From Candidatus Cloacimonadota bacterium (lineage in GTDB: Bacteria > Cloacimonadota > Cloacimonadia > Cloacimonadales > Cloacimonadaceae), in assembly GCA_029561955.1 (NCBI GenBank), contig JAKQWO010000075.1, positions 1-51,844 on the forward strand: a stretch of 51,844 nt of DNA, read 5' to 3'. Made by a program: the position numbers and the translations under genes. Each line of letters opens with the position of its first letter. Position 1 is the stretch's first letter. The notes beneath the pieces were generated by a model. That model was not told the DNA's origin, searched no databases, and was given only the letters and a program-made list of their open reading frames with translations. Of the stretch, positions 14,585 to 38,952 are shown one piece after another.

Positions 14585-17500
14585 TTACTTCATCATGATC
14601 ATTTTTCGAGTGCTGCTGTATCTGCCGGCTCTCATTTTGTAGAAGTACACGCCGCTGCATACAGGGCAGTTGTGCTTATCCAAGCCATTCCAGAGCACGG
14701 TGTGGTTTCCGGTTTCTTTGGATTCATCGATCAGGGTGCACACATGCTGCCCCTTGATATTGTAGATATCAATTGTGACCGGGCTCGCTTCCTTCAAGCT
14801 GTAGCTGATCGTGGTTTCAGGATTGAAGGGGTTAGGGTAGTTTCCGTGAAGAGCCGTAGCCGCAACGGGTGTCTGAGGGTCATCGTTATCTGTCGCACTC
14901 ATCAGCGCAAAGTTTACGGTGGTAGTAAGATTTGGGTTTACTATCACATTCTCTACGGTTTGACTGATATAATATGTTGCGGATGCTGTCACCGTGTGCG
15001 TTCCCGCTGGAACCGGCAGACTGTATTGTCCCGCATGATTTGTGGTAGTGAACAAGACGCCGTTGCTAACGGTTGCGCCGACAATGGGGATGTTGAATCT
15101 GGATTTCACTGTACCCATGATGGTCCCTGCAGCGGTATTCGTCTCCAAGATATTTGAGAAACTGGGCAGAGAGAAGAGATCGCCGGCGTAAACAGATTTG
15201 ACCGCCCAACGGTAAACCCCACTGGGAAGCTGATTCCAGTTCGTATCACATATACTAAGGGCGAGGGTCGGCTCCGGAGTCACGATATGCCAAGTGGCTT
15301 CATCTAACATCTGATCAGGATGGAACCTATAAACCATATACCCGATGTGTAACTGAGGGATTGCATCCTCGGACACTGTGTCTGTAACCTGTATATTTAA
15401 CGCCGCTTTAGACCCATTATTCTTTCTCAGAGGTGCTGAGCTGGCATGCTGCCAAGATATTTCCACCGCATCGCCGGCATCATTCAGCACCGCGGTTACC
15501 TCATCTGCCACTCCCATTGGATAAACCGTAATCTGCAGCTCTGCGGTGCGGTTGTTCATGTTAAATGTATCATCAGCCAGTTCCACTTTACCGTAGATGC
15601 TGATTTGGCCTACGGTATTCGGAGTCCAAGGCAACACCACATCCAGGCTCTGCATGCTGTTGATGGGAGGGCCAGCCACGTTAGCCAGCTCCAGATTGCC
15701 CGGTCCCATGAGCTTCACGCTGTAGTTATCTTGAACTGCGGTGCCATTGTTACGGATGCGGACGGTGTAGTTTGAGGTTTTTCCCAATGTAGCTATCGGA
15801 TTGCCGCTGATAGCCAAAGCGCCCAAGTCATTTGCCAACAACTCGTTGCTGTAGAAGAAGCTTGCTTGAGGGATTTTGCCAGTGAGAAAACCTTCGGGAG
15901 GGCTGTAGGGGTCTAAAGTGTTGTTTCCATGACTGCTAACCCGGCGAGCACGGTTGTTGCCCACGGTCTGACACCTGAAGACATCATATACACTGTAGGA
16001 GTCGGTTTCTTCAGGACGATGGAACATCACCGCCAAGTTTCCACCTGTGTGCACAAAAGGCGTTTGGAAATTGATGAGGATGTTGTTTTCACCCATCGGA
16101 TAGTCTATCATGCCATCAAAGACCAAGGTCATCTGGGTAGCAGGGATAAAGCCTGTATTGAGGTTGCTCCGATACGTGCTTCCCAGAAAGATTTGGGTGG
16201 GCTCATTGGGGAGGTCGTCAAAAAACTCGTTATAGATCACCATGGAGCTGATGGTTCCGCTCTGGAAGCCCAGTTCGTCTGCCAGATAAATCGCCTCATA
16301 GAGAGAGCCATGCTTTGAAAACTCCATAGGGAAGGGAGCGACCGTATTGCCAGCCCCGATGGTGATAGTTTCAAGGTTTGCAGGTGCAATGTCTATCCGC
16401 AGGGGCTTTGTCCTGTTGTTTACATCCGTTGCATCGCCGGTCATTTCAACTCTGCCATGAATGCTGTTTTGGCCTACAATGCTGGGCACCCAGGGGATTA
16501 CCACCTCTACGATTTCACCGCTATAGATAGGCGGGCCGTTTACTACTGCAATCTCGACGTTGTGTGTCAACATCAGTTTTACCCGATAGTTAGACTGAGT
16601 ATTGCTGCCGTTATTTCTGATGCGCACGGTGTAGTTTGATGTTTCTCCCAATGTTGGGGCGAGAGGGCCGCTGATGTCAACCGCACAGAGATCGTTGGCG
16701 ATACTCTGAGTAAAATTGAGCATGACATTGGGCATCTTGCCGTCTATAAATCCTATTTCTGAAGGCGTGTTATTGTAACTATGACGCAGATGCCCTCTTT
16801 CGTTGATTTCGGTATATCTAAAGCCGTGATTTTCACTGTTATAACCCATACTTTGTGTCTCAACGGCGATGATCAGATTTGCACCTCTGTAGACAAAGGG
16901 AGTATCCAGATTGAATATCTGCCAGCCCGGGGTGCTGATGAACATGGAACCTTCTTTGACCAGAGTCATACCAGCCACCAAAGCCTGCCAGCTTGAATAT
17001 CTCATGTAGCTGTCATGGGTGTTTTTGACCCAAATCTTGTAGTTAAATGGTTCGTTACCATAAGCGTAGGCGCAGTCCCAAACTATCGACTGCAAGGTGC
17101 CGATGGCATTTATCCGATCCGCCGTGTAAAGCGTGGCAGAGCTTTCCCTGCTACTGCTGATGCCAAAGGGATAAATTTGACTGGCGCTACCATCTCCGAT
17201 CGTAATGGTGCCGGGAGGCGTCACCTCCGCTCTCAAGGTCACATCATAGTTTTGACCTTGATAGACAATGCGCAAGGTGGCAGAGATGAATCCAGGAGTG
17301 GTGCCGGTCAGGACGATGGGGATATTCAGGCTTTCCATAGGACTAAGGGAAACGGGCAGAGTTGCCGGATCAATGGAGAATTCCGCCGCATTTGGCCCGA
17401 AGAAGCTAAAATCACTTGCGGAGAGATTCAAGCTTCCAATGCCAACATTGGAGACTGTCACATCAAGAGGAGTGGGCACGCCGTTGACGGCCAACTCATA

Positions 17501-19003
17501 GTCTAAAACAACAGGTGACACACTCAAAATTGGGCCACTAAGTAGATCGCTGACGAGTAATCTGATATTGGGAATTGCGCTTTGCAGAGTTCCAACGGGC
17601 GGGGAGTTGGGGTCTGGGTTTATACTGTTTTCGCCAAAGTAGGTGATGCTACGATTTTGGTCTGGGATGTAGGTGCCATGGAAGTAGGGATCGATGTTTT
17701 CATACAAGTCGATACCGGGCGTGTTTTCATCCACAGCGATCACCAAATTGCTGGTGGTATTATATAAAAACGGGGTCTGCAGAGGGATCAGTACCCAGCC
17801 GGGTGTGGCGGGGATAGGTAACTGGCCGGAAAAGACTTGCACCATCTCGTTGACAGGAACCCAATCTGAATTGTGAGAGAAGGCAGTCCTATTGGTGTGT
17901 CCCATATAAACCACCCAATCATGGCTGTTAATTCCCTGACATGCTCCATTCCAGTAGTAGGCTATCTTTTCGATGTAGCAGGCTGCGTTATCGTTACCTT
18001 GATTTCCGATACCGATTTCGGATTGCAGAAAGATACTCTGAGTGTAGTTGTATTCAGAATAAGGCCAGATGGGCACCTGAAAGTCTTCGTTGCCATTGCC
18101 GATGTCTACCACCGTGGGAATCAAAAAGTTTAGGGTTGCGGAGGGAGGCGAGTCTACCAAGTGGTTTTTGGCTACCACATACCAAGAGTGCTGCCCAGGT
18201 GCCAAGTCATTGATTATGTATTGAGTAGCTGGCTGGTTTTCACTTACCAAAGCCCCATCAATATACACATCATAACCGCTCGCATAGGCACTGCCTTGAG
18301 GCAAAACCCATTCCAAAGCCTCTCCATTCATTATCGAGGCGTTGTTGGCAGGGCTTGTCAATATAGGTGACATGAGGTTTTCGGCATCCGAAAAGACAAG
18401 CTTGATGGAAGCGATCACAGGATACCTTTGTACGCTGAGAATTGGAATGTTATTGGGGTCTATAACGTTTTCTCCAGAAACAGTTATGCCAATATTGTGT
18501 CCTTGGTAATTGGTATGTCTTTTCCATTCTATGGCATCCCCATAACCGGGAGTGCTTTCATAGACAGCTACCACCAAATTGTCGGTGTTGTTGTAGATAA
18601 AGGGAGTGTCCAAGGTTATTTCCAACCAATCTCCAAGCGTAGGCGAGAAGTTGATCACGTTGCCAGAGAATACCTCGGTGAGATTGGCGATGGGCTCCCA
18701 GTCTGACGCGGAAGCAAAAGCATGGCGCGAGACATGTCCCATGTAGATAGTCCAATCTTGGGAGTTTTCCAACAATTGGTCTTCCCCAAAGACCTCACCA
18801 ATGTAAAACCCGATCTTGGTGATTTCGCCTCCATGATTGATGTAATACCTGCGGTAGAGCTGTTGAGTATAGCTATAACTACTGAAGGAGCTTATCGGAA
18901 AAAAGATTATGGTATCGTCACTATCATCACCTACGATAACCGTGGTGGCATAAATGCTCGCTACGAGCATAAGCAGGGCGATCAAAGCTGTCAGGCGTCT
19001 CAT
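14585..19003 (-). CDS. Giant secreted multidomain protein with FlgD-like C-terminal sorting domain
   Basis: 1472 residues. The ATG at 19003 has AAGGAGA upstream. A signal peptide (1-19, 'LIALLMLVASIYA') is followed by about four copies of a ~170-residue beta-rich unit (approx. 25-205, 295-485, 597-770, 880-1060), each with 'YMGHTNRTAF'-type and 'LDTPFIYNNTDNLVVAV'-type strands. Between them lie fibronectin-like segments, a choice-of-anchor D-like domain (~490-595) and two CARDB-like repeats (~775-875, ~1062-1160, 'TSNYTVRIRNNG'). A carboxypeptidase-regulatory-like domain (~1300-1375) precedes the last ~85 residues, which form a FlgD-Ig-like sorting domain starting 'LHGNYPNPFNPETTISY'. Such tails direct secretion by the type IX system in Bacteroidetes; use of the same route here is inferred. 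A paralogue lies at 36907-41199. Confidence 0.88.
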   Translation of the reverse strand: MRRLTALIALLMLVASIYATTVIVGDDSDDTIIFFPISSFSSYSYTQQLYRRYYINHGGEITKIGFYIGEVFGEDQLLENSQDWTIYMGHVSRHAFASASDWEPIANLTEVFSGNVINFSPTLGDWLEITLDTPFIYNNTDNLVVAVYESTPGYGDAIEWKRHTNYQGHNIGITVSGENVIDPNNIPILSVQRYPVIASIKLVFSDAENLMSPILTSPANNASIMNGEALEWVLPQGSAYASGYDVYIDGALVSENQPATQYIINDLAPGQHSWYVVAKNHLVDSPPSATLNFLIPTVVDIGNGNEDFQVPIWPYSEYNYTQSIFLQSEIGIGNQGNDNAACYIEKIAYYWNGACQGINSHDWVVYMGHTNRTAFSHNSDWVPVNEMVQVFSGQLPIPATPGWVLIPLQTPFLYNTTSNLVIAVDENTPGIDLYENIDPYFHGTYIPDQNRSITYFGENSINPDPNSPPVGTLQSAIPNIRLLVSDLLSGPILSVSPVVLDYELAVNGVPTPLDVTVSNVGIGSLNLSASDFSFFGPNAAEFSIDPATLPVSLSPMESLNIPIVLTGTTPGFISATLRIVYQGQNYDVTLRAEVTPPGTITIGDGSASQIYPFGISSSRESSATLYTADRINAIGTLQSIVWDCAYAYGNEPFNYKIWVKNTHDSYMRYSSWQALVAGMTLVKEGSMFISTPGWQIFNLDTPFVYRGANLIIAVETQSMGYNSENHGFRYTEINERGHLRHSYNNTPSEIGFIDGKMPNVMLNFTQSIANDLCAVDISGPLAPTLGETSNYTVRIRNNGSNTQSNYRVKLMLTHNVEIAVVNGPPIYSGEIVEVVIPWVPSIVGQNSIHGRVEMTGDATDVNNRTKPLRIDIAPANLETITIGAGNTVAPFPMEFSKHGSLYEAIYLADELGFQSGTISSMVIYNEFFDDLPNEPTQIFLGSTYRSNLNTGFIPATQMTLVFDGMIDYPMGENNILINFQTPFVHTGGNLAVMFHRPEETDSYSVYDVFRCQTVGNNRARRVSSHGNNTLDPYSPPEGFLTGKIPQASFFYSNELLANDLGALAISGNPIATLGKTSNYTVRIRNNGTAVQDNYSVKLMGPGNLELANVAGPPINSMQSLDVVLPWTPNTVGQISIYGKVELADDTFNMNNRTAELQITVYPMGVADEVTAVLNDAGDAVEISWQHASSAPLRKNNGSKAALNIQVTDTVSEDAIPQLHIGYMVYRFHPDQMLDEATWHIVTPEPTLALSICDTNWNQLPSGVYRWAVKSVYAGDLFSLPSFSNILETNTAAGTIMGTVKSRFNIPIVGATVSNGVLFTTTNHAGQYSLPVPAGTHTVTASATYYISQTVENVIVNPNLTTTVNFALMSATDNDDPQTPVAATALHGNYPNPFNPETTISYSLKEASPVTIDIYNIKGQHVCTLIDESKETGNHTVLWNGLDKHNCPVCSGVYFYKMRAGRYSSTRKMIMMK

Positions 19004-22859: not shown

Positions 22860-24232
22860 TACTTTTCTTTGAGAAAAGCCAAGATTTCTTCACCGTACTG
22901 CCAGATATTGCCGGCGCCCATAGTCACTAAGATGTCACCAGGCTGTAAGATAGCCAAGGTCGTTTCCACTATTTTTTCATTGCTTTCGATCAAGTTTACA
23001 CCTCGATGTCCACAGCCTATGGCCACGTCTGCAATCAGCTTGCTGCTCACGCCTTCAATCGGCGCTTCTCTGGCTGGATAGATAGGGGCGAGGAGCAATT
23101 GATCGCAATGGAAGAAGGAGTTGCCAAATTCTGCAGCAAAATCACGGGTTCTGGAGTAAAGGTGGGGTTGATAGAGGGCTACGATGCGCCGGGAAGAGCT
23201 GTCTTTGAAAGCTTCCAAAGTGGCTTGAATTTCGGTGGGATGGTGGGCGTAGTCGTCATAAACCGTGATTTCATTAACCGTGCCTTTGAGCTCAAATCTG
23301 CGGTAGACGCCGCTGTAGTTGGCCAGTCCGGCTGCAATATCCGCAAAGGGGATGTCCAGTTCCAAGCCTATTCCTGCAGCCTGTAAGGAGTTCAGGATGT
23401 TGTGCTTACCTGTCACGTTCATCTTGATGGTGCCCAAATTGTAGCCTTTGTAGCTGAGGCTGTAGCTGCAACTGTAGCCTTCCATCTTGATGTCCAGCGC
23501 TTGGATGTCTGCCTGACGTGAGAGGCCGTAGGTGAGTATCTTTTTGTTGATTCGGGGCAGTATGGATTGCACGCCGGGATCGTCCAAACAGCAGATCACG
23601 CTGCCAAAGAAAGGGACTTTGTTTGCGTATTCCACAAAAGCATCCTTGATGCTGTCCAGGTTTTCATAGCAATCCAGATGGTCGGCATCGATGTTGGTGA
23701 TACCAGCGATGCAGGGCGTCAAGGTAAGGAAGCTGTGATCATATTCATCGGCTTCCACCACGATAAACTGGCCGGAGCCCATCACGTTGTTGGAACCGAA
23801 GTTCTTTACCTTTCCGCCCACGATGATGGTAGGTTTGAGTCCAGCGGCTTCCAAAACCATGCCGGTCATGGACGTGGTTGTTGTTTTGCCATGTGTGCCC
23901 GAAATGCCGATGCTGAAGCTCATGCGGGTGATCTCAGCGAGCATCTCAGCTCTGCGGATCACGGGGATGTTCAGAGCTTTGGCTGCGACCACCTCAGGGT
24001 TTTCATCTGTTACTGCGGAGGATTTTACCACCACGTCTGCATCGGTGATGTTTTGAGGGCTGTGGCCTTCATACACGACGATGCCCAAGCTTTCCAAGTG
24101 ATGTGTGAGGTCGGTCTTTTTCATGTCCGAACCTGTGATTCCCAAGCCCTGATTGTGCAGGAATTCAGCGATGCCGCTCATTCCGATGCCGCCTATTCCG
24201 ATAAAGTGGATCTTACGAGTTTTTCCCAGCAT
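22856..24232 (-). CDS. murC: UDP-N-acetylmuramate-L-alanine ligase MurC
   Basis: Adds L-Ala to UDP-MurNAc in the cytoplasm using ATP. 458 residues, the usual length. The N-terminal nucleotide-sugar motif 'GIGGIGMSGIAE' is at 12-23, the ATP loop 'GTHGKTTTT' near 112, and 'EADEYDHSFL' and 'NIDADHLDCY' in the central domain are typical of MurC. The C-terminal domain has 'DDYAHHPTEI' and 'YQPHLYSRT'. The ATG lies 20 nt inside the murG 3' end with TTGGAGG upstream. Confidence 0.97.
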   Translation of the reverse strand: MLGKTRKIHFIGIGGIGMSGIAEFLHNQGLGITGSDMKKTDLTHHLESLGIVVYEGHSPQNITDADVVVKSSAVTDENPEVVAAKALNIPVIRRAEMLAEITRMSFSIGISGTHGKTTTTSMTGMVLEAAGLKPTIIVGGKVKNFGSNNVMGSGQFIVVEADEYDHSFLTLTPCIAGITNIDADHLDCYENLDSIKDAFVEYANKVPFFGSVICCLDDPGVQSILPRINKKILTYGLSRQADIQALDIKMEGYSCSYSLSYKGYNLGTIKMNVTGKHNILNSLQAAGIGLELDIPFADIAAGLANYSGVYRRFELKGTVNEITVYDDYAHHPTEIQATLEAFKDSSSRRIVALYQPHLYSRTRDFAAEFGNSFFHCDQLLLAPIYPAREAPIEGVSSKLIADVAIGCGHRGVNLIESNEKIVETTLAILQPGDILVTMGAGNIWQYGEEILAFLKEKY

Positions 24233-25493
24233 GAGTAACCTCCAAGCTATTCAGTATTTGCTGGCAGATGTCTTTTCTGGCCGTGTTTGGGGGAAGAGCA
24301 ATCAGATTCTGTCTGTAGTCTTCTCTGTTGATCAATATCTTCTCTACAGCATCGATCAAAACTTGTGCATTCAGGTTCTTTTGTTCCAAGCAGATGGCTA
24401 TGCCTTTGTCTTCTTGCTCTTTAGCGTTGTAAAACTGATGGTTTTCGGCAGAACTGGGCAGAGGGATGAGGATGGCGGGTGTGTGATTGTCCATCTGTTC
24501 TGCCAAAGTCATGGCGCCCGAGCGGGAAATAGCCAGGTCTGCCATGTTGTAAAATAGGGGTAAGGAGGGTGAGAAGGCAAAGATGTGCACGTTTTGCTTG
24601 TCCTGATGCTTGCTGCTGTAAGTCTGGTGGCCGATTTTTCCCGTCTGCCAGATGAGCTGCCAGCCTTTGGCAAGCATGCTGTCCAGTGCTTGATCTATCG
24701 CCTCATTGATCTTCAAAGAGCCTTGAGAGCCGCCTGTGATCAGGATGATGGGCTTGCTTCGATCGAAATGCTCCAGCTTCTCCTCAGGTTCCATCTGTGT
24801 GGCTTTGCGGGGCATGAGGGGAATCTGGCTCATTTTCACAGGCGCACCTTTGAGGTATTTGAAAGCAAAATCCCAACACACAAAGGTGATGGTGGTTCGC
24901 TTGGCTAAGTATCTGGTAGTGATGCCTGGGAAGCTGTTGCTTTCGTGAAAATAGAGTGGTATCTTGAGTAGGATGGCCGCAATGGCAACCGGCCCGGAGA
25001 CATAGCCACCGGTGCAGATTACGCCATCGGGACGGTGTTTCCTCAAGTGGCTGACGCATTTGACAATGCTGTTTACCAAGAAGAAAGGGAAGGCCAAGAG
25101 CGAGGGATGCAGCTTGCGGCTGAGCTTTTTGACCTGAATGGCCAAGAAGGGATAGCCTTCACGGCTCACCAAGCGCTCTTCCATGCTGTCTGCATTGCCG
25201 ATGAACATTGTTGCGTGACCGTCCAGAGCAAATTCATGAGCCAATGCCAAAGCGGGGTAGATGTGTCCGCCTGTGCCTCCACAACCAAAGATAAACCCAA
25301 ATTGTGCGGTAGCACCAGCGTGTTCTCCTGCTTCTTCCTTACTTAGCCGCCCGGTGATTACTCGGTGCCTCTCGGGATTTTCCCGAGTATCTCCATGGCA
25401 TCGCCCTGCGGATAAGCAAGGAAGAAGTGGGTGACGGGGCAAAAAGCTCAATTTAAGGAAAGAGCTTACTGAATTATTCAGAAAAAGCCTCAT
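24213..25493 (-). CDS. murG: MurG (lipid II synthase) with a repeat-encoded N-terminal extension
   Basis: Transfers GlcNAc to lipid I at the membrane. The catalytic core starts near residue 65 ('FGFIFGCGGTGGHIYPALAL', the GGTGGH loop) and is ~362 residues, the normal MurG length. 'TGGSQGSLKIN' and 'SRSGAMTLAE' mark the UDP-GlcNAc site. Residues 1-64 are extra. The ATG at 25493 overlaps the ftsW stop (ATGA) and has AGAGGAAG upstream, so it is a good start. Codons 24-54 are encoded by the palindromic element at 25334-25424. No ATG, GTG or TTG occurs in frame between that element and the GGTGGH loop (only two TTGs, upstream of it), so the element must be translated unless a non-standard start is used. 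Confidence 0.92.
   Translation of the reverse strand: MRLFLNNSVSSFLKLSFLPRHPLLPCLSAGRCHGDTRENPERHRVITGRLSKEEAGEHAGATAQFGFIFGCGGTGGHIYPALALAHEFALDGHATMFIGNADSMEERLVSREGYPFLAIQVKKLSRKLHPSLLAFPFFLVNSIVKCVSHLRKHRPDGVICTGGYVSGPVAIAAILLKIPLYFHESNSFPGITTRYLAKRTTITFVCWDFAFKYLKGAPVKMSQIPLMPRKATQMEPEEKLEHFDRSKPIILITGGSQGSLKINEAIDQALDSMLAKGWQLIWQTGKIGHQTYSSKHQDKQNVHIFAFSPSLPLFYNMADLAISRSGAMTLAEQMDNHTPAILIPLPSSAENHQFYNAKEQEDKGIAICLEQKNLNAQVLIDAVEKILINREDYRQNLIALPPNTARKDICQQILNSLEVTHAGKNS
25334..25424. repeat. Palindromic element, copy A, inside the murG reading frame
   Basis: 91 bp. Outer arms (CTTCCTTACTTAG... and ...TAAGCAAGGAAG) pair over ~25 bp with 5 mismatches. An inner hairpin CTCGGGA-TTT-TCCCGAG lies in the middle. 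Copy B at 36222-36309 shares an identical 35-nt block (25343-25377) plus most of the rest. The inner loops differ but the stem is kept. In murG it encodes residues 24-54. Confidence 0.9.
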
Positions 25494-26626
25494 AGCGTCT
25501 TCCTCTTGGAACCTATGTTCAGTATCACGCCCACGCTCAGAGAGTCGATGAGCAGTGCTGAACCACCATAACTGATGAAGGGCAAAGTGTTTCCGGTGGA
25601 GGGGATGATGGACATCGCCACGCCGGTATTGACCAAGACGTTGTAAAAGATATTCAGAGCAAGGCCGGCACAGAGCAGCCTCAGATACAGGTTCTCCTGT
25701 TGATTTGCCGTCTTGAAAGCCCTGAAGAAGATCACACAGTGCAAAAAGAATACAGCGAAAGCGCCGATGAAGCCCAATTCCTCGCCGATGACGGTGAAGA
25801 TGTAGTCCGTCCTCGCTTCAGGCAGGTAGGAATGCTTTGCCCTGCCACGGTTTACGCCTGTTCCGAGAAATCCGCCTCTGGAAAGTGCGGTGATGCTTTC
25901 TCTCACGTTATAATCACTGGGGCCGGGCTCGGCAGTTTCGGATTGGGTGAGCAGGAAATAGGTCCTGTAGGCATCAAGGCGATCACCTCTGAATTTGTCT
26001 CCAAAGGAAATAACGGCCATAAAGCCCAACACCCCGATCAAAAGCAAGATAAATACATATCGATAGCGGATTCCAGCATAGACGGTGAGGGTCAACAAGG
26101 TGGCTGCATTGATGACGATGGTGCTGAGGTGGCGCTCTATATAGATCAAAAAATAGATGATACCGGTGATGATGATCAGGGGATAAAAGTTTTGGATCAG
26201 CCCCTTGAAGTATGAAGTCGCCAAGGCTTCTTGCTTTTTGGAAAAGTGGTCTGCAAAGAGGAAGATCAGAGCCACTCTGGCTAAAAAGCTGGGCTGGAAT
26301 CCTATGCCCATAAAGCGGATAGCCCTCGTGCCGCCCTTTGCGGTCTTGCCAGCTATCAACACCACTATCAGCAAGACAATGGAGATTGCGATGAGGGTCA
26401 TGGGTAACCACTTCATTTTGCCGATATTAGGGAACCTGAACACGATTAGGGTGGAGATGATGGAGACGGTTAGGAAGATGATGTGATTGCGGATGTAGGT
26501 CGGCTCGTTTTGGTTTGAAGCGATATTCATCATCATATATAAACCCACTCCGCACAGCAAGATATAGCAACCTAACAGTATCCGGTCGTAAGTGACGATG
26601 TGTTGATTTGAGCTATTTCTTTTCAT
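25490..26626 (-). CDS. ftsW: SEDS-family lipid II polymerase/divisome protein FtsW
   Basis: A 378-residue polytopic membrane protein with about ten hydrophobic segments. SEDS signatures include 'GGTRAIRFMGIGFQPSFLARV', here as the 'GG.RW...G..FQPSE' equivalent, then 'GFLGTGVNRGRAKHSYLPEARTD' in two parts and 'PSTGNTLPFISYGGSALL' near the end. The start at 26626 lies 14 nt inside murD. A longer frame reaching 26845 runs over the murD 3' end and adds Cys-rich non-membrane sequence, so it is rejected. FtsW polymerises septal glycan with the class B PBP encoded upstream. Note 'PSFL' where 'PSEL' is usual. Confidence 0.94.
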   Translation of the reverse strand: MKRNSSNQHIVTYDRILLGCYILLCGVGLYMMMNIASNQNEPTYIRNHIIFLTVSIISTLIVFRFPNIGKMKWLPMTLIAISIVLLIVVLIAGKTAKGGTRAIRFMGIGFQPSFLARVALIFLFADHFSKKQEALATSYFKGLIQNFYPLIIITGIIYFLIYIERHLSTIVINAATLLTLTVYAGIRYRYVFILLLIGVLGFMAVISFGDKFRGDRLDAYRTYFLLTQSETAEPGPSDYNVRESITALSRGGFLGTGVNRGRAKHSYLPEARTDYIFTVIGEELGFIGAFAVFFLHCVIFFRAFKTANQQENLYLRLLCAGLALNIFYNVLVNTGVAMSIIPSTGNTLPFISYGGSALLIDSLSVGVILNIGSKRKTL

Positions 26627-27965
26627 GGTTCGACACCAGAGATTGAACGATTTGTTTGAAGACTTCGCCCCGATGCTGATAGTTTTGAAACCTGTCAAAG
26701 CTGGCGGCTGCAGGTGAAAGCAGCACGATGTCTCCCCGCAGGGATTCATTGAAAGCAGCTTGCACGCAGGCGCTAAAGTCTTGGAATGTGGCCAAAGGTA
26801 GCTTGCCTTGCCAGGCTTGGAGCATCTTGGCTTCAGTGTCGCCACAAATGTAGACCTTGAGCGCCCATTGGCTGAGGATGTCTGTCAATACGCCGAAATC
26901 CTCGCCCTTATCGCTGCCACCCATGATGACTCTGATGGGCTTTCCAAAGGAAATGAGGGCGCTTCTCACGCTGTCGGTATTGGTGGCTTTGGAGTCGTTG
27001 TAAAAGCTCACACCTGCCACTTCAGCAACATATTCCAAGCGATGGGGGAGAGCGGGGAAGCTCTTTGCTGCATCAATTGCGGCATCGAGACCCAAGCCCA
27101 ATGCCTGAATCGTGAGCATGGCAGCCATGAAGTTGGCGTGGTTGTGCGGGCCTTTGATGATCAGATCATCGGTCAAGCAGCGATACTGGCCGATCTGGAT
27201 ATAGTTACCATCCATCCAGGCCTGCACAACTGGAAAACTGCTGATGAGTGAATAGCGCAGCAGCTTGGCCCTTATCTGCTGGATACGCTGCATGATGGGC
27301 TCGGAATCTGCGCAGATCACGGCTTTGTCTTCAGCAGTTTGGTTTAGGAATACCCGCATCTTGCTCTGTGCGTAGTCATTAAAGTCTTTATAGCGGTCTA
27401 AATGATCCGGAGTGATGTTGAGCAGCAGGGCGACATCTGCCTTGAAGCTCTGGATGGTATCCAGTTGGAAGCTGGAGAGTTCCAAAACGATATAATCTAT
27501 GCCGGCATCTTCTATCGGGTAGTTGCAGATTGCGTCTCCGATGTTGCCTGCCAAGATGGACTTATGCCCCAGAGCATCGAGGCAGTGATGGATGAGGCTG
27601 ACGGTAGTGCTCTTCCCATTTGAACCCGTCACAGCGATGATCTTGGCAGCTTTGTGCATGATGCGATAGCCAAATTCGATGTCACCGATGATCTCTATAC
27701 CTGCTTTGATGCCCTTTTGGACGATAGGAGCAGTGAGAGGAATGCCGGGGCTGATGATCCAGACAGGAAAATCTAAGAGCCGATCCGAGTGAGCGCCAAA
27801 TTCACATTCAAAGTTTGCTTCCAGCTTGGCTGCTTCCGCGATCTGCTCTCGTGGCTTGGTATCGCTCAGGAAGGCGGTTCCACCCAGCTTGCGGATCTTG
27901 TAAGCGGCGGCGATTCCACTTCTTGCCAAGCCCAGCACTGCGTATCGGATATCGGTGTCAAACAT
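26613..27965 (-). CDS. murD: UDP-N-acetylmuramoylalanine-D-glutamate ligase MurD
   Basis: Adds D-Glu to UDP-MurNAc-L-Ala. 450 residues. The N-terminal domain reads 'YAVLGLARSGIAAAYKI' (~8-24), the ATP loop is 'VTGSNGKSTTVSL' (~112-124), 'LNITPDHLDRY' is in the central domain, and the C-terminal domain has 'SFPALPHRLEYV' and 'NDSKATNTDSV' followed by 'MGGSDKGEDF'. The ATG at 27965 has AAGGAAGA upstream and follows mraY after 16 nt. Its 3' end overlaps ftsW. Confidence 0.97.
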   Translation of the reverse strand: MFDTDIRYAVLGLARSGIAAAYKIRKLGGTAFLSDTKPREQIAEAAKLEANFECEFGAHSDRLLDFPVWIISPGIPLTAPIVQKGIKAGIEIIGDIEFGYRIMHKAAKIIAVTGSNGKSTTVSLIHHCLDALGHKSILAGNIGDAICNYPIEDAGIDYIVLELSSFQLDTIQSFKADVALLLNITPDHLDRYKDFNDYAQSKMRVFLNQTAEDKAVICADSEPIMQRIQQIRAKLLRYSLISSFPVVQAWMDGNYIQIGQYRCLTDDLIIKGPHNHANFMAAMLTIQALGLGLDAAIDAAKSFPALPHRLEYVAEVAGVSFYNDSKATNTDSVRSALISFGKPIRVIMGGSDKGEDFGVLTDILSQWALKVYICGDTEAKMLQAWQGKLPLATFQDFSACVQAAFNESLRGDIVLLSPAAASFDRFQNYQHRGEVFKQIVQSLVSNHEKK

Positions 27966-29085: not shown

Positions 29086-31917
29086 TTATTCTCCTTTACC
29101 CAAGTAGGGCAGCAGTTTTGCCAGTTTGATGCCATTGGAAGCTTTCACTAGGATCACGGAGTCGGCTGGAATCCGCACCTGAGCCCAGTTTATGATCAAG
29201 TCATCCACATTCTGAAAGTGAAGGCTATCTATTTGTGATTCAAGCGGTTGATAATGCTGACTCAGTTCACCCACGGTGTAGAGTCCATCCACTTCTGACT
29301 CCGCTAAGATGGCGCCAATCATCTGATGATAGGTCACTGCCATATCTCCCAGCTCAAGCATGTCGCCCAAGAAGGCCAGATGCGGTTTTCCCGGCTTGAG
29401 GCTTTGCCAGTATTCCAGAGCTTTGCGCATGGAGACGGGATTGGCATTGTAGCAATCCGAGATCAAAATCCTGTCGTCAATAAAGTCCGTTTCCATGCGG
29501 TGGTGCAGGTCGAGAGGGAGCATCAATCCAGCTTGGATGACCTCAGGCTTGATGCCCTTCTCCAAGGCCAAAGCGATGGCAAAGGAAGCATTGAGCACAA
29601 AGTGCGGCATCTTGCTTGGCACTTCAAAGCTGTGCCCAGCTAAGTTAAAGCTTTGACCCTCAGGGCGTTCCTTCACCTCTGTGATCCGATATCTGCTTTG
29701 CTCACCATAGCCCACTCCGATGGAATTGGCAGCGTATCTGGCAAACCTCGCATCATCTCCATCATAAAGCCGTAGCTGCATATTGGGATCCAAGATAACG
29801 CTCTTTTCCCTGAACACACCATCCTCAGAGCCAAAGTGTTCCAGATGCGAAGGGCCGACATTGATCAGGACACCGGCATTGGGATGCAGTGTTTCCATCA
29901 TCTGTGGAATCTCGCCAAAATGGTTGGTTCCCAGCTCAAAGACACCGTATTGGTGCTGAGGTTTAACCCTGCGGATGGTTTTGCATAAGCCTATGATATT
30001 GTTTTCATTAGCGCTTGTCTTGAGTGTGGGCGCTTCGCTGCTGAGGATATTTGCCAAGATTTCCTTGGTGCTGGTCTTGCCTGTGCTGCCGGTGAGGGCG
30101 ATCTTGTAAAGCGGAAACATGCCGATATACTTGCTATGCACGGCGGCCAAAGCCTTGATGGAAGAGGCAGCCTGATGATAGTTCTTCGCCTCCAGAGCAC
30201 GCTCACCAATGGCGAAATTGCTCTCATCCTTGAGGACTTCACTCAGGAAGGAATGGCCATCAAAATTGAGCCCTTTGAGAGCGAAGAACACAGAGCCCGG
30301 CTTGAGATTGCGGCTGTCGGTGGAAATGTATTGGTAACTGCGAGGAGGGTGATAGCCTGTTTCCTCTTCCTGATGTGGGATCCCCAAGATGACCTTGAGC
30401 ATGGTTGCATCAAGAGGCAGGCTCAGAGCCTGAGGATCAGGCTCTACCTTGCTCTTCAAATACTGATTAACTGTCTCCACATCGTCAAAATGATGCCTCT
30501 GCCCTTCGATTTCCTGATAGGTTTCGTGTCCTTTACCACAAATCACTACGATGTCCTGCGGGCTTGCCAGGCTTAAGATGGCCTGAATAGCCAAAGCCCG
30601 GTCTCTGATGATCCACCATGGCAAGTCAAGATGCGAGCCGCTAATGATGTCAGCGATGATACTAACGGGGTTCTCACTGCGCGGGTTATCGTCTGTAATG
30701 ATGACAAAATCCGAGTGCCTGAGTGCGGAACTCAGCATCAGAGGCCGCTTGCCTTTATCCCGATCGCCACCCGCACCCATGAGGCACAAAACCTTGTTAT
30801 GAGGCAGCCCACGCGCTGTCTTTAACACCGTTTCGATCGCATCCGGCGTGTGGGCATAATCCACATAAATGCCGATGCCCTTGTCGTTTGCTACACTCTG
30901 CATGCGTCCGGGAACTGTTTTCGCCGCATAGATCGCCTTTTGGATGTCCCTCAGATCAAAGCTCATCAGATGCAGCGCCGCAGCGGCCATGGCGATATTG
31001 GTGGCATTGAATTCACCGATCAGCCCACTTCGCAAGGTGATTCCACCTTCATTGGTTTTGAAGACAAAGGAGAGTCCGTCCAGATCGCATTTTAGGTCTT
31101 CAATCCTATATGCGGCATCGGTGCGTCCCACGGTGAAGACAGACCCCAAGCTATAGGTCAAATCTTCCGCCAGCTCCGCTCCATAACTATCTGATGTATT
31201 GACGATTGCTACACTCCGTCCCAGTCTTACGGAGTCAAACCACCCGGATTTCACCTCAAAATACAGGTTCATATTTCCATGAAAATCGAGGTGATCACGG
31301 CTGAGATTGGTAAAAAGACATAGGTCAAATTCCAGGCCGTAAACCCTATCCAAAGCAATAGCATGCGAGGATACTTCCATGATCACGTAGCTCACTTCTG
31401 CGTCTCTCATAGAGGCCAAGATACGGTTGAGCTCCATGATATCGGGTGTAGTGTGCTTGGTTTCATAGTGATCATCGTTGATCTTATATCCCAAGGTGCC
31501 TATCCAGCCGACTTTTAGCCCCAGGCTTCTAAGAGCAGAAAAGATGACCAGGGAGGTGCTGGTCTTTCCGTTTGTGCCTGTTACGCCGATGAGTCTGAAG
31601 CTGGAAGAGGGATTTTGGTAGTATAAACCAGCCAGTAATGCTGCGGCTTTACGGCTATCTGAGATTTTGATGTAGCTGCAGGTGACCTGAGGTTCTGCTG
31701 TGCCCACCACGAGTGCCGCTTTTTGGGAGACTGCCTGCTCGATAAAATTATGTCCGTCAAAGCTTAAGCCCTTGATTGCGATAAAGATATCCCCGCTGCC
31801 CACCATGCGGTTATCCGTGATAGGTGTGCCCTGGATTTCTTGGCTCTGATCCAGATTATAGCCTTTTGGTTGAAGGTCATGAGCGGTGAAAAGCTTTATT
31901 ATCTCGCCAATCTTCAT
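29086..31917 (-). CDS. murE-murF: MurE-MurF fusion (meso-DAP-adding and D-Ala-D-Ala-adding ligases)
   Basis: One 943-residue polypeptide carries two Mur ligases. Residues ~1-490 are MurE: 'DNRMVGSGDIFIAIKG', ATP loop 'GVTGTNGKTSTS', 'TTPDIMELN' and 'TDDNPRSENP' (~410). The DNPR motif marks meso-diaminopimelate specificity. Residues ~510-943 are MurF: 'STDSRNLKPGSVFFALKG', ATP loop 'LTGSTGKTSTKEIL' (~605), 'TSANENNIIG' and 'DCYNANPVSMR'. A ~25-residue linker joins them. The ATG at 31917 overlaps the ftsI stop (ATGA); a start 21 nt earlier is not needed. MurE/MurF fusions occur sporadically; both halves keep their ATP loops, so both are probably active. Confidence 0.96.
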   Translation of the reverse strand: MKIGEIIKLFTAHDLQPKGYNLDQSQEIQGTPITDNRMVGSGDIFIAIKGLSFDGHNFIEQAVSQKAALVVGTAEPQVTCSYIKISDSRKAAALLAGLYYQNPSSSFRLIGVTGTNGKTSTSLVIFSALRSLGLKVGWIGTLGYKINDDHYETKHTTPDIMELNRILASMRDAEVSYVIMEVSSHAIALDRVYGLEFDLCLFTNLSRDHLDFHGNMNLYFEVKSGWFDSVRLGRSVAIVNTSDSYGAELAEDLTYSLGSVFTVGRTDAAYRIEDLKCDLDGLSFVFKTNEGGITLRSGLIGEFNATNIAMAAAALHLMSFDLRDIQKAIYAAKTVPGRMQSVANDKGIGIYVDYAHTPDAIETVLKTARGLPHNKVLCLMGAGGDRDKGKRPLMLSSALRHSDFVIITDDNPRSENPVSIIADIISGSHLDLPWWIIRDRALAIQAILSLASPQDIVVICGKGHETYQEIEGQRHHFDDVETVNQYLKSKVEPDPQALSLPLDATMLKVILGIPHQEEETGYHPPRSYQYISTDSRNLKPGSVFFALKGLNFDGHSFLSEVLKDESNFAIGERALEAKNYHQAASSIKALAAVHSKYIGMFPLYKIALTGSTGKTSTKEILANILSSEAPTLKTSANENNIIGLCKTIRRVKPQHQYGVFELGTNHFGEIPQMMETLHPNAGVLINVGPSHLEHFGSEDGVFREKSVILDPNMQLRLYDGDDARFARYAANSIGVGYGEQSRYRITEVKERPEGQSFNLAGHSFEVPSKMPHFVLNASFAIALALEKGIKPEVIQAGLMLPLDLHHRMETDFIDDRILISDCYNANPVSMRKALEYWQSLKPGKPHLAFLGDMLELGDMAVTYHQMIGAILAESEVDGLYTVGELSQHYQPLESQIDSLHFQNVDDLIINWAQVRIPADSVILVKASNGIKLAKLLPYLGKGE

Positions 31918-34088
31918 AGAGATGCCTCTACAATACAAGTGCTATTTGGGTAGATCTTTTCTCCGGGGCTGATGCTTTGGCTTTTCACGATGCCCGAGCC
32001 CCTGATATTGAGCATCAAATTGTGTGCAGAGGCCGTTCTCAACGCTTTACGCAGCGTCATACCCACCAGTTTGGGCATGGTTCCGCTGGGCACCTCTTGC
32101 GGGCTTGAAGATGCTCTATGTCCCACTTTGATGGTGATGGGATGCCCAGGTTCCACCGCTACATTTGGCTTTGGGAATTGATCCACCACGATGTTTAAAG
32201 TATCAGAACCCTCCACCTTATATTGGAAGCCATGACGGCTTAAAATGTTCTTAGCCTCAGAAATATGCTTGCCCTTCAAATCCGGCATCACAAGCGAGGC
32301 CTGCATCAATCTATCATTGAAGGCGATCGCATCACAACCGGGCATAGAGAGGATTGATTCCACGATCTTTCTAAAGGTGGGAGCGGCACTTGTGCTGCCA
32401 TAGTGATAGCCGGTCGCAGGCTCGTCATAAAACACCACCACCACCATGCGCGGGTCTTCTATCGGAAAGGTTCCAGCAAAGACGGAAGTGTATTTACCGC
32501 TGGAATATCCACGTGTTCCCTCCACGTTTTTCTGAGCTGTTCCCGTCTTGCCACCCAGAGAGATGTAATCCATCTTGATGTGTCTGCCCGTGCCGTGATC
32601 CACCACAGCTTGCAGATAGCTAAGCACCGTATCTGCAGCAGCTTTGCTGGCCACTTGCTTGATCACGGTGGGCTCAAATTGCTCCACCACGTTGCCCTTT
32701 TCATCCACATAAGCGTCCACCAACATCGGCTTCATCATCTTGCCTCCATTGGCGATAGCGGCAAAAGCGACCGCCTGCTGCAGAGCCGTGACGCTGATTG
32801 CTTGCCCAAAAGAGATGGAATGAAGCGTGAAGCCATCCCAATTGGCGAGTTTGGCAAAGATGCCACTCGTTTCCCCATGTAGATTCAGTGCGGTTTTTTG
32901 GCCAAAGCCGTAAGAGATAAACTTTTCATACATTCGTCTGTTGCCGATGCGTTCTGCCAATTTGGCCACGCCGACGTTGCTTGATTTTGCAATGATGCCC
33001 ATGGGTGTGAGCGAGCCATAATTGTGTGTGTCGCTGATTCTTCTGCGTCCCACCTGATATACGCCGCAGGGGATGAGCTCGTTGTGACGCACCACTTTAT
33101 AATCCAAGGCTGCCAACATGGTGAGTGGCTTCATCGTGGAACCGGGCTCAAACATAAAGCTGGAGGGGATATTTGCCCTCACCCTCACCAGATTGGGGTC
33201 CACCGATCTGTCGTCGTGCGAGACTCCTGCCATAGCTAAAATTCTGCCCGTTTTGGGGTCCATCACCACCGCACCGGCGTTTTTGGCGCTGTATTTCACC
33301 AAACCCTCGCGCAGCTCTTTCTCGATCAGCTCCTGCAAGCCGGAATCTATGGTGAGCCTGATTCCCAGCCCATTTACCGGCATTTTTTCTTTCAGGTTGG
33401 GATAGGGAACACGTTGATGATTGGCATCTTCCACATACTCTCTCCAGCCGTTTTCGCCCGCCAAAAGGTCGTTATAAGTGGATTCCAGTCCGCAGATACC
33501 GGAGAGCTTATAGATGGATTTACTCTGCGTGAGCGGATCGTATCCATCAGATTCGGCTCTGACCGAACCCAAAAGCCGTGCTGCCACTATATCCTTGGAA
33601 TAGATGCGTTTCATGGAGGCAAAGCTGTGCGACAATCCCACCACACCATCTGCGTCAAAGGCTTTGATGATACGGTCAAGCTCACTTTCCTTGATCTTGT
33701 TGCTGATCTGGATGGAGGTGAGCTTCTTGTTGATATTCAGTCTCTTGAGTACCGCTTCTTTGCTCAGGGAGCTGTTTTTGGAGATCAAGTCCGCTACAAT
33801 ATCATAGGCTTCGCTCGGCTCGATTTTTTTGCGCTCTGCCCATCTGCTTACAGACGCTCGGTCTATATCCACCTGATAATAGCGGATGCTGCTCACCAAG
33901 AGGCTCCCATTTGCATCGTAAATTGGCCCTCGATTTGGGATCAAAATATCTTTCCGAGGTATATAGCGTCCTGCGATCCTGCTCTTGAGATCGATAGGGT
34001 TAAATACCTGCAAACTGAAAAGATATACTGTCCAGATTACTGCAATCAGCAGAAAAATCCCAGCCAATAAACGATATCTACTTTGCAT
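31914..34088 (-). CDS. ftsI: Class B penicillin-binding protein FtsI (septal transpeptidase) with PASTA domains
   Basis: 724-residue transpeptidase that cross-links septal peptidoglycan. One N-terminal membrane helix (~6-26) is followed by a pedestal domain, then a catalytic domain with 'PGSTMKPL' (active Ser near 319), 'AKSSNVG' (~369) and 'GGKTGTAQ' (~513). Two PASTA domains fill the C-terminus: 'MPDLKGKHISEAKNILSRHG' (~600-660) and 'MPKLVGMTLRKALRTASAHN' (~665-724). PASTA tails are usual in Gram-positive PBP2x and SpoVD and occur in some other phyla. The ATG lies 3 nt after the ftsL stop; its own TGA overlaps murE. Confidence 0.96.
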   Translation of the reverse strand: MQSRYRLLAGIFLLIAVIWTVYLFSLQVFNPIDLKSRIAGRYIPRKDILIPNRGPIYDANGSLLVSSIRYYQVDIDRASVSRWAERKKIEPSEAYDIVADLISKNSSLSKEAVLKRLNINKKLTSIQISNKIKESELDRIIKAFDADGVVGLSHSFASMKRIYSKDIVAARLLGSVRAESDGYDPLTQSKSIYKLSGICGLESTYNDLLAGENGWREYVEDANHQRVPYPNLKEKMPVNGLGIRLTIDSGLQELIEKELREGLVKYSAKNAGAVVMDPKTGRILAMAGVSHDDRSVDPNLVRVRANIPSSFMFEPGSTMKPLTMLAALDYKVVRHNELIPCGVYQVGRRRISDTHNYGSLTPMGIIAKSSNVGVAKLAERIGNRRMYEKFISYGFGQKTALNLHGETSGIFAKLANWDGFTLHSISFGQAISVTALQQAVAFAAIANGGKMMKPMLVDAYVDEKGNVVEQFEPTVIKQVASKAAADTVLSYLQAVVDHGTGRHIKMDYISLGGKTGTAQKNVEGTRGYSSGKYTSVFAGTFPIEDPRMVVVVFYDEPATGYHYGSTSAAPTFRKIVESILSMPGCDAIAFNDRLMQASLVMPDLKGKHISEAKNILSRHGFQYKVEGSDTLNIVVDQFPKPNVAVEPGHPITIKVGHRASSSPQEVPSGTMPKLVGMTLRKALRTASAHNLMLNIRGSGIVKSQSISPGEKIYPNSTCIVEASL

Positions 34089-35990: not shown

Positions 35991-36665
35991 AAAGCTTTTT
36001 CTCGCTTTTTACTTGTAGAAAAGGATCAACATACAGGAGGTAACTGATTTTATTACAAGTCGTTAGCTGTAGCAGAAACAGTGTTAGCTTTTTTTGATAT
36101 TTTTGCTTCGTGTCCCTGCCTTCTTCCCTAAATCCTCCTTTGTCTAATAAGGGAGGATCTAAGGTGGGTGGCAGCCAAGACCCTGCCTAAAATAAGGAAA
36201 AACCATATTGTCTTCCTACCTCTTCCTTGCTTAGCCGCCCGGTGATTACTCGGTGCCTCTCGGGAAAAACCCGAGTATCTCCGGCGTATCACCGGGCGGG
36301 TAAGTAAGGGCCAAGAGGGTACGAACCTGTAAGAGCGGAAGAAAGAAAAAGTCATGTCCTGCAAAGCCGCTGGCCTAAGGGATAAGATTATTTTGAGATT
36401 GTCATCATGCTTCTAACACATAGCTACCAAATCAGATAGGCCAGATTTCACAGTCCGGGAGATTAAAAAATTCTTCAAAACCAAAAAAAGTAGTGCTTCC
36501 AGCATCTCAATTTTGGCATTTTGGACACTTATAATATAGAGGCCGGCCAGAGATCGGGATACAAATCTGTCTGTCTCCGATTGCTAAGATTTTCAAGCTC
36601 GATTGGAACGGTTTGTGCTTCATGATAATAACAGAATGCGGTTCTTTCCACGGAAGGAGGAAAAG
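35991..36665. other. Intergenic region upstream of mraZ holding a palindromic element
   Basis: About 675 bases between the divergent mraZ and the rightward gene fragment, with no convincing gene. It holds a short imperfect inverted repeat (ATCCTCC at 36132-36138 and GGAGGAT at 36152-36158), the palindromic element copy B (36222-36309) and a perfect TATAAT at 36530-36535. The TATAAT could serve the rightward genes but has no good -35 box. A 78-codon leftward frame at 36128-36364 is generated by the repeat and is not considered real. Confidence 0.45.
36222..36309. repeat. Palindromic element, copy B, intergenic
   Basis: About 88 bp. Outer arms CCTTGCTTAGCCGCCCGGTGAT-type and its complement pair over 22 bp with 2 mismatches. 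The inner hairpin is CTCGGG-AAAAA-CCCGAG. It shares a 35-nt identical block (36231-36265) with copy A inside murG, and the rest is clearly related. Copy B has the better-paired outer stem. Confidence 0.9.
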
Positions 36666-36906: not shown

Positions 36907-38952
36907 ATGAAGAGACTAACTTTATTAACAGCGTTAATTATGATATTTTTCGGCCTCGGTGCCACAACGGTTACTGTAGCCAAGCCAATAACCAGCTCGT
37001 ACCATATACCGGCTTACACTTACAATTATTCAAGCTATAGTCAGCAGATCTATACGCAATCTATGATCAACCGTCAAGGCGAGATCACCAAGCTCAGGTT
37101 TTATCTTTTTTGGCACACTACCAACGGCAGCCTGAACAACAGCCATATTTGGAAGGTTTATCTGGGTCATACTACACGCAGCACTTTCGCCTACAATTCA
37201 GATTGGGTTCCCATTGCCAATCTGACCGAGGTGTTTCATGGTGGCGCACCCATCAATCTTCCTCCCAAAGGTGGGGAGTGGTTAGAGTTTATCCTGGATA
37301 CTCCTTTTGTTTACAACAACGTTGACAACCTGGTGGTGGCTGTCTATACCGTCAATCACAACATGGCTGGAGAAGTGAGTTGGGGACGCTTTCACACCAA
37401 TCAATATACCGCTTTGTGTCACAATTATGGATATGAAATCGATCTCTACAACCCTCCTGAAGCCAACAATAGGGTTATGATCGTCCCTGCCTTTCAGCTT
37501 GTATTTCCTGATACTGAGGTTCCGGTTGCGCCTGATTTGATCAGTCCTACTCCTGATGACAACTGGGTGAATGGCCAACCCTTGGATTGGATTTTGCCAC
37601 ATGCAAATAATTATTATTCTCCTGTATTTGAGCCAGATGCGAGTGGTTATGATGTATACATTGATGGGGCTTTGGTGAGTGAAAATCAGCCGGGCAATCG
37701 ATACGTAATCAATGGTTTGGAGCCAGGGGAGCATACATGGCATGTGGTAGCCAGAAATAATGTGGGCTTTTCACCGCCTTCTGAAACAGGTACTTTCAAT
37801 GTCGTCCCGGGTAAAGCTATCGGCGATGGAAGTGAGGACTATAAGCTGCCGATATATCCCTATTCCCGCTATAGCTACACCCAGAGCATTTATCTTCAAT
37901 CCGAGATAGATATAGAGAATCATCCCATCGAAAAGCTGGCCTTTTACTGGAACGGAAGGGATGCTACCGTGAATCGCGATAATATCCTGATTTACATGGG
38001 TCATACAGATAAAACTGAGTTTGCTGATGGGGAAGATTGGATTCCAGTGAGCGAAATGACCTTGGTCTTCGGAGGTCTTTTGGGCTTTCCCGCTGTCATC
38101 GGCTGGTATGAAATCGAGCTGGAAACTCCATTTTTGTTCAATAATGTAGACAACCTGGTGATCGCCGTCTGTGATAGCGATGTTCGTAGCGATTACATGT
38201 ACAGAAACTTTTATTGCACAGCGACTCCGGGACAAAACCGTAGCATAGCAAACTATAGTGAGATAGACCACGCCGCACCTCCCGCCGGGGCTTTGGTTGC
38301 AGGATTTCCCAATATCTTGATGCGCTGCGGCGAGATACCTGAAACCCCGGAAATAAGGGTGTTGCCGGTTACTTTGGACTATAATGTGGCTGTTTATGGT
38401 AAACCGACTGCTCGTAATGTGGAGGTTGTCAATATGGGCGGTGGAACCTTGAATCTTAGCATGGCCGATATCAGCATTATAGGTCCCAATGCAAATGAGT
38501 TCTCAGTTGATCCGATATATCTGCCCGTGTCTTTGGGGCCTCTGCAACATGTGACAATTCCAGTTGTTGTGACAGGTGTAACGCCCGGGCCCATATCTGC
38601 TACCCTGCGCATTACTTATGACGGGGAAATCTATGATGTGGATTTAGATGCGGAGGTCACGCCCGCCGGTGTTGTCATCATTGGAGATGGCACTATGTCT
38701 CAAAATGATCCTTTCAACATGATATCCCACAATGAACGTTTCCTGTCCCTCTATACAGCGGATCAGTTACGTGGCGTGGGCACCATCGACAGGATTGCTT
38801 GGGACTGTACCGCCACCGGCAACTCTACAATTCGTTATAAAATCTATCTCAAAAATACTAATGAAGCAGTTTTGCCCAGTCCACACATAGCAATTGAGCA
38901 AGCGACCTTGGTCAAACAGGGCCAATATGTTCCCAGGAAATTGGGCTGGTGA
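36907..38952 (+). CDS. Giant secreted protein, N-terminal part, ended by an in-frame TGA
   Basis: 681 codons starting at an ATG with TAGGAGG upstream; signal peptide 1-20 ('LLTALIMIFFGLGATT'). It parallels the first half of the 1472-residue protein at 14585-19003: beta-rich units with 'YLGHTTRSTF' and 'LDTPFVYNNVDNLVVAVY', a fibronectin-like segment ('SGYDVYIDGALVSENQP'), a second unit and a choice-of-anchor D-like domain from about residue 480. It stops at TGA 38950-38952 in the middle of the third unit, at 'KLGW*'. The frame continues directly into 38953-41199 with matching paralogue sequence, so this is one gene broken by a single nonsense codon. Confidence 0.85.
   Translation: MKRLTLLTALIMIFFGLGATTVTVAKPITSSYHIPAYTYNYSSYSQQIYTQSMINRQGEITKLRFYLFWHTTNGSLNNSHIWKVYLGHTTRSTFAYNSDWVPIANLTEVFHGGAPINLPPKGGEWLEFILDTPFVYNNVDNLVVAVYTVNHNMAGEVSWGRFHTNQYTALCHNYGYEIDLYNPPEANNRVMIVPAFQLVFPDTEVPVAPDLISPTPDDNWVNGQPLDWILPHANNYYSPVFEPDASGYDVYIDGALVSENQPGNRYVINGLEPGEHTWHVVARNNVGFSPPSETGTFNVVPGKAIGDGSEDYKLPIYPYSRYSYTQSIYLQSEIDIENHPIEKLAFYWNGRDATVNRDNILIYMGHTDKTEFADGEDWIPVSEMTLVFGGLLGFPAVIGWYEIELETPFLFNNVDNLVIAVCDSDVRSDYMYRNFYCTATPGQNRSIANYSEIDHAAPPAGALVAGFPNILMRCGEIPETPEIRVLPVTLDYNVAVYGKPTARNVEVVNMGGGTLNLSMADISIIGPNANEFSVDPIYLPVSLGPLQHVTIPVVVTGVTPGPISATLRITYDGEIYDVDLDAEVTPAGVVIIGDGTMSQNDPFNMISHNERFLSLYTADQLRGVGTIDRIAWDCTATGNSTIRYKIYLKNTNEAVLPSPHIAIEQATLVKQGQYVPRKLGW

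Follow-up and report, generated by a model that had tools for sequence, protein, structure and literature searches.

A MITE with IS1380-like ends inserted in frame at the start of murG in a member of Candidatus Cloacimonadota

Small mobile repeats as sources of protein sequence

In-frame fusions of small mobile repeats to protein genes have been reviewed (PMC10969869), and they include the RPEs of Rickettsia and the WPEs of Wolbachia. As reported by Ogata et al. (2000, 2002, 2005) and relayed in PMC3767692, PMC2229807 and PMC10969869, these are short palindromes that are present in many copies and are translated in frame within conserved and essential protein genes, where the insert is expected on the protein surface. 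Essential enzymes already known to contain RPEs include PheRS beta and IleRS (PMC3767692) as well as the guanylate kinase Gmk (PMC2229807). In-frame fusions are likewise known in enterobacteria (PMC2759123, PMC2229807), where the MITE-like repeats RU-1, RU-2 and RU-3 (ERIC-type) carry open frames and are fused N- or C-terminally (PMC2759123). In Coxiella, QMITE2 is present in about 50 copies of roughly 190 bp, occurs both at full size and as a short REP-like core, is flanked by direct repeats of 7–9 bp and makes in-frame additions to genes, one of them at the C-terminus of enhC (PMC5896051).

The element described here lies at the start of murG in the window (the whole stretch of 51,844 nucleotides that was analysed) of a Candidatus Cloacimonadota genome. 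It shares with RPEs and WPEs the short palindrome, the many copies and the in-frame position inside an essential gene, with the RU repeats the MITE-like build and the open frame, and with QMITE2 the length and the two forms. It differs from RPEs in host phylum and in having clear terminal repeats, a target duplication and an IS1380-like partner. The RU fusions involve other repeats and hosts, whereas murG offers two sister species with the empty site and a native start ahead of the element; in contrast to QMITE2, the target duplication is A/T-rich and 5 bp long, and the insertion is N-terminal and in a core enzyme. The IS1380 family is approached through resemblance of the partner transposase (NF033539, PF13701), a short target duplication and the insertion sequence ends borne by the MITE, although the MITE itself has no gene and the partner transposase falls below the NCBI family cut-off. 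Furthermore, RPEs often lie in genes, whereas murG is the sole case among the 162 copies inspected here, so in-gene insertion is rare and recurrent insertion into many unrelated genes was not observed. The murG case resembles an RPE insertion in how it would work, but it is not classed as an RPE.

An earlier note on this DNA had likened the palindrome to the Rickettsia elements and judged its presence in an essential enzyme of an unrelated lineage to be new. The precedent holds but is too narrow in view of the enterobacterial and Coxiella cases, and the novelty lies in the host group and in murG, since RPEs already occur in essential enzymes. The element is a new MITE family member; its ends are IS1380-like, both host group and gene are new, and the kind of event is already known. 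A literature search on such elements in Cloacimonadota turned up no paper.

The insertion at the ftsW-murG junction

The host genome is a single metagenome-type draft assembly (81 contigs, 99.5% complete), and its nearest named relatives are the MAGs JPNG_metabat.107 and UBA3900. In G002 and G003, the two nearest sequenced species, the ftsW-murG junction is an empty site reading ATGAAG-TTTATC, which encodes MKFIFGCGG. In the window, 66 codons precede FIFGCGGTGGH as against two in the sister species (AAGAGGAAGACGCTATGAAGTTTATCTTTGG), which gives the extension of 64 residues that had been proposed earlier. The extension is absent from all five of the five congeners, so that the case of relatives sharing it, which would have spoken against an insertion into this essential enzyme, does not arise.

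The palindrome first noticed inside the murG frame (residues 24–54) is real, its predicted fold reaching -45.2 kcal/mol compared with -25.0 +/- 3.8 in 200 shuffles (z -5.3). The 91 bp originally taken for the element are, however, only its core: family alignment and the empty site define a complete unit of 187 bp accompanied by a 5-bp duplication (Table 1), and a 4-bp target duplication was also rejected, as the element ends give 5 bp. Together these make 192 nt, or 64 codons, which is the whole MurG extension. The terminal inverted repeats are about 19 bp long, and the first two bases of AACCCAAATTGTGCGGTAG are part of the target copy. This copy matches positions 2–191 of the 194-position family profile, is oriented as the family consensus and thus antisense to murG, and is 15–18% diverged from its nearest relatives. 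Relative to the family it carries two separate deletions, of two bases and of one, which keep the frame only jointly. An Rfam scan of the window returned tRNAs only.

Table 1. Coordinates of the features at the murG locus and of the second family copy in the window.
Feature	Position	Strand	Remarks
murG	24213..25493	-	426-aa open reading frame; single copy; Pfam PF03033 and PF04101; N-terminal extension of 64 residues
murG catalytic part	from FIFGCGGTGGH, 25295 downwards	-	preceded by the extension
murG start ATG	25491..25493	-	overlaps the ftsW stop (ATGA); AGAGGAAG just 5'; kept in G002 and G003
ftsW	25490..26845	-	directly upstream of murG, same operon; Pfam FTSW_RODA_SPOVE 9.6e-69
Complete MITE, 187 bp, CCCAAATTGTGCGGTAG...GAATTATTCAGA	25296..25482	+	family alignment; empty site in sister species
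Palindromic core, murG codons 24-54	25334..25424		fold energy
Target-site duplication, intact copy ATAAA	25291..25295	+	identical to the empty site of G002 and G003
Target-site duplication, second copy AAAAG	25483..25487	+	3/5 bases match ATAAA
Terminal inverted repeat AACCCAAATTGTGCGGTAG	25294..25312	+	3 mismatches to AACCCARATAATGCARTAG
Other terminal inverted repeat, degenerate, TCTGAATAATTCAGTAAGC	25464..25482	-	family alignment
Second family copy, core only	36210..36332	+	intergenic, upstream of mraZ

Elsewhere in the window, a single frame of 950 aa (29086-31938, minus strand) joins MurE to MurF and has a full-length match to the bifunctional MurE/MurF model. Two pairs of segments, 16014-16201 with 39673-39860 and 18135-18285 with 37637-37787, show inverted similarity (74–76% over 74–188 nt) and are likely to be paralogous repeats belonging to large surface proteins.

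The repeat family and its probable mobiliser

The element belongs to a family of many copies, none with a transposase gene, whose complete members measure 187–190 bp and so stay under about 500 bp. Alignment of the copies defines a unit of about 190 bp in which terminal inverted repeats of the form AACCCARATAATGCARTAG flank the palindromic core; this repeat has 60 matches in the genome as opposed to two for the reversed control. Profile matches number at least 150 in this genome, 126 in G003, five in G002 and one in G001, counts in which a palindromic copy can match on both strands, and none was found in the two other congeners; among 107 genomes from the order, just four match the core. In this genome at least 109 distinct copies were inspected, of which 25 of 109 retain both ends and 39 of 109 consist of the core without terminal repeats. 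An exact 5-bp target duplication flanks four of the 25 two-ended copies (P 0.001, assessed by re-pairing the flanks). The usual 190 bp plus 5 bp amount to 195 nt, the inserted length is divisible by three in 14 of the 25 two-ended copies, and the frame used by murG is the most often open of the six (46/108 copies).

The related intergenic copy reported before at 36222-36309 is likewise genuine, with 79% identity over 119 nt, and is absent from the regions compared upstream of mraZ in G002 and G003. Cores lacking terminal repeats, of which this copy is an example, may represent a mobile unit of their own that sits within the 190-bp form, or else remnants. Other short repeats, among them CGGTCGCTCGCCGAAGCGACCG and GGCGGTTCAGCGACCGCCCGTAC, cluster in the flanks of five copies (L003, L017, L018, L023, L029), and there seem to be additional families of small palindromes.

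How often the family enters genes was judged on 162 copies, 109 from this genome and 53 from the sister species. Long open frames running over the copies were translated, and a Pfam scan covered the 20 most relevant ones in this genome. In this search murG alone (1/162) has the element in frame within a recognised protein; the other long open frames either hold no Pfam domain or have the element ahead of the likely start. Candidate in-gene copies at ProS, a Bat-like protein and an endonuclease-III-like protein were rejected, the element lying just before the likely start in each.

The earlier suspicion that the palindrome belongs to a mobile element is borne out by the copy number, the terminal inverted repeats, the target duplication, the orthologous sites that are empty and an autonomous, IS1380-like partner that shares these ends; movement of the MITE is shown by the empty murG junction in G002 and G003. 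The MITE termini recur where contigs break beside the start and the far end of an IS1380-like transposase gene: the contig ends L064 and L065 (on C49 and C51) begin the gene, MQQEQANKKPQKGQVKIEFTPKFITSWGGT..., and L061, L062 and L067 (on C1, C8 and C15) carry the far end of the element. Each of these ends adjoins ATAAA, TTAAA or TTTAT, the same target preference as that of the MITE. At least three near-identical copies of the IS1380-like element exist here, but the assembly lacks their body and contains only N- and C-terminal fragments of the transposase.

Relatives of the transposase were found with its 30-residue N-terminus as query. An intact homologous insertion sequence in a relative, G045, has the terminal repeats, is flanked by a GTAAA duplication and encodes a 469-aa transposase, which scores above the cut-off for Pfam DDE_Tnp_1_4 (PF13701; 84.9 bits) and below the NCBI cut-off of 180 for NF033539 (IS1380; 163.8 bits). 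A PF13701 scan of the congeners gave no match, because the body of the insertion sequence is not assembled. Since the MITE ends are shared with the insertion sequence, which is intact in G045, the IS1380-like transposase is most likely what moves the MITE, as judged from sequence. A DDE_Tnp_1 transposase gene at a contig end (C47:238-921, L187) was rejected as mobiliser, its ends being without the repeat; it has other termini, and a degraded copy exists in G003 (L188).

Probable translation through the element and its alternatives

The best reading, which we hold with considerable confidence, is that a MITE of about 190 bp inserted in frame at the start of murG, is translated as a 64-residue tail of MurG and is tolerated. 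An IS1380-like transposase acting in trans would have moved the non-autonomous element into ATAAA overlapping murG codons 3–4, after the host had split from its two closest sequenced relatives. The 192 nt are divisible by three, and no stop occurs in the frame that was entered. Both the ATG and the ribosome-binding site of the native gene were retained, so MurG would be translated through the element, placing a probably unstructured 64-residue tail before the first beta strand of the enzyme. The insertion would have persisted as tolerated, because the tail lies ahead of the domain that folds and purifying selection still acts on the catalytic part (dN/dS 0.08–0.12).

The earlier view that the ATG at 25493 is well supported stands, as both sister species have the same ribosome-binding site and the same ATGA overlap with ftsW. 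It had also been stated that no usable start separates the palindrome from the GGTGGH loop, and indeed in-frame ATG, GTG or TTG codons before the catalytic part occur at codons 1, 15 and 18 only, all upstream of the palindrome, with none past codon 18. An unlikely alternative is that the element is present and a non-standard start downstream of it yields a MurG without the extension: the ATC of the FIF segment comes directly after the element, and AGGAG lies in the element's distal arm. However, the GTG that is well spaced behind this AGGAG is out of frame, and besides the conserved native start, the 192-nt insert has remained in frame and stop-free despite its divergence from other copies. 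Because murG is single and has its native start and ribosome-binding site, no standard in-frame start past the palindrome and a catalytic part under purifying selection, translation through the element is very likely on these sequence grounds, and EEAGEHAGATAQFG in the predicted extension runs on into FIFGCGGTGGH.

The tail might also have been co-opted, for example to associate with the membrane or to control MurG, but we regard this as quite improbable. The first ~30 residues of the predicted tail are hydrophobic and basic (MRLFLNNSVSSFLKLSFLPRHPLLPCLSAG), and the frame is still open, for which a rough simulation gives a chance of 0.08–0.28 without constraint at 10–15% divergence. The open frame is nevertheless uninformative on the tail's own use, since it is needed anyway to reach the catalytic part; moreover, the tail occurs in one species only. 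AlphaFold2 models it without structure (pLDDT <35 for the tail and <50 over residues 1–60, low values that stem partly from a lack of aligned homologues) ahead of a confident and intact enzyme fold. A broader version, in which the MITE family is adapted to survival within genes through its 195 nt and its often stop-free frame and the MurG tail has become useful, for instance in membrane attachment or regulation, appears similarly doubtful.

MITEs often inactivate genes (PMC10969869), yet a decaying murG pseudogene is scarcely credible. No second murG was found in the rest of the 99.5% complete genome, the gene has no internal stop or frameshift, and its product passes the curated TIGR01133 model (252.4 bits, cut-off 250.25). 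Relative to G003 it is 89% identical with a dN/dS of 0.084, and the lineage-specific replacements number 3, 3 and 4 in the window and sister lineages, with no excess here. Stitching of a repeat copy into the ftsW-murG junction during assembly, conceivable in a draft whose contigs break within insertion sequences sharing the MITE ends, is most improbable as well, because the copy is unique sequence at least 15% different from its closest long matches (<=85% identity) and ends exactly at the target duplication matching the empty site, with the expected operon on both flanks.

With the insertion at murG, in-frame capture of MITEs reaches an uncultured phylum and an enzyme at the core of cell-wall synthesis. 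The empty site in two sister species, the exact boundaries and the probable mobiliser make it a well-resolved test case of how a transposon yields a new protein segment in one step that an essential gene tolerates. It also serves as a warning that, in draft genomes of this group, an N-terminal extension may come from a transposon and still be real coding sequence.
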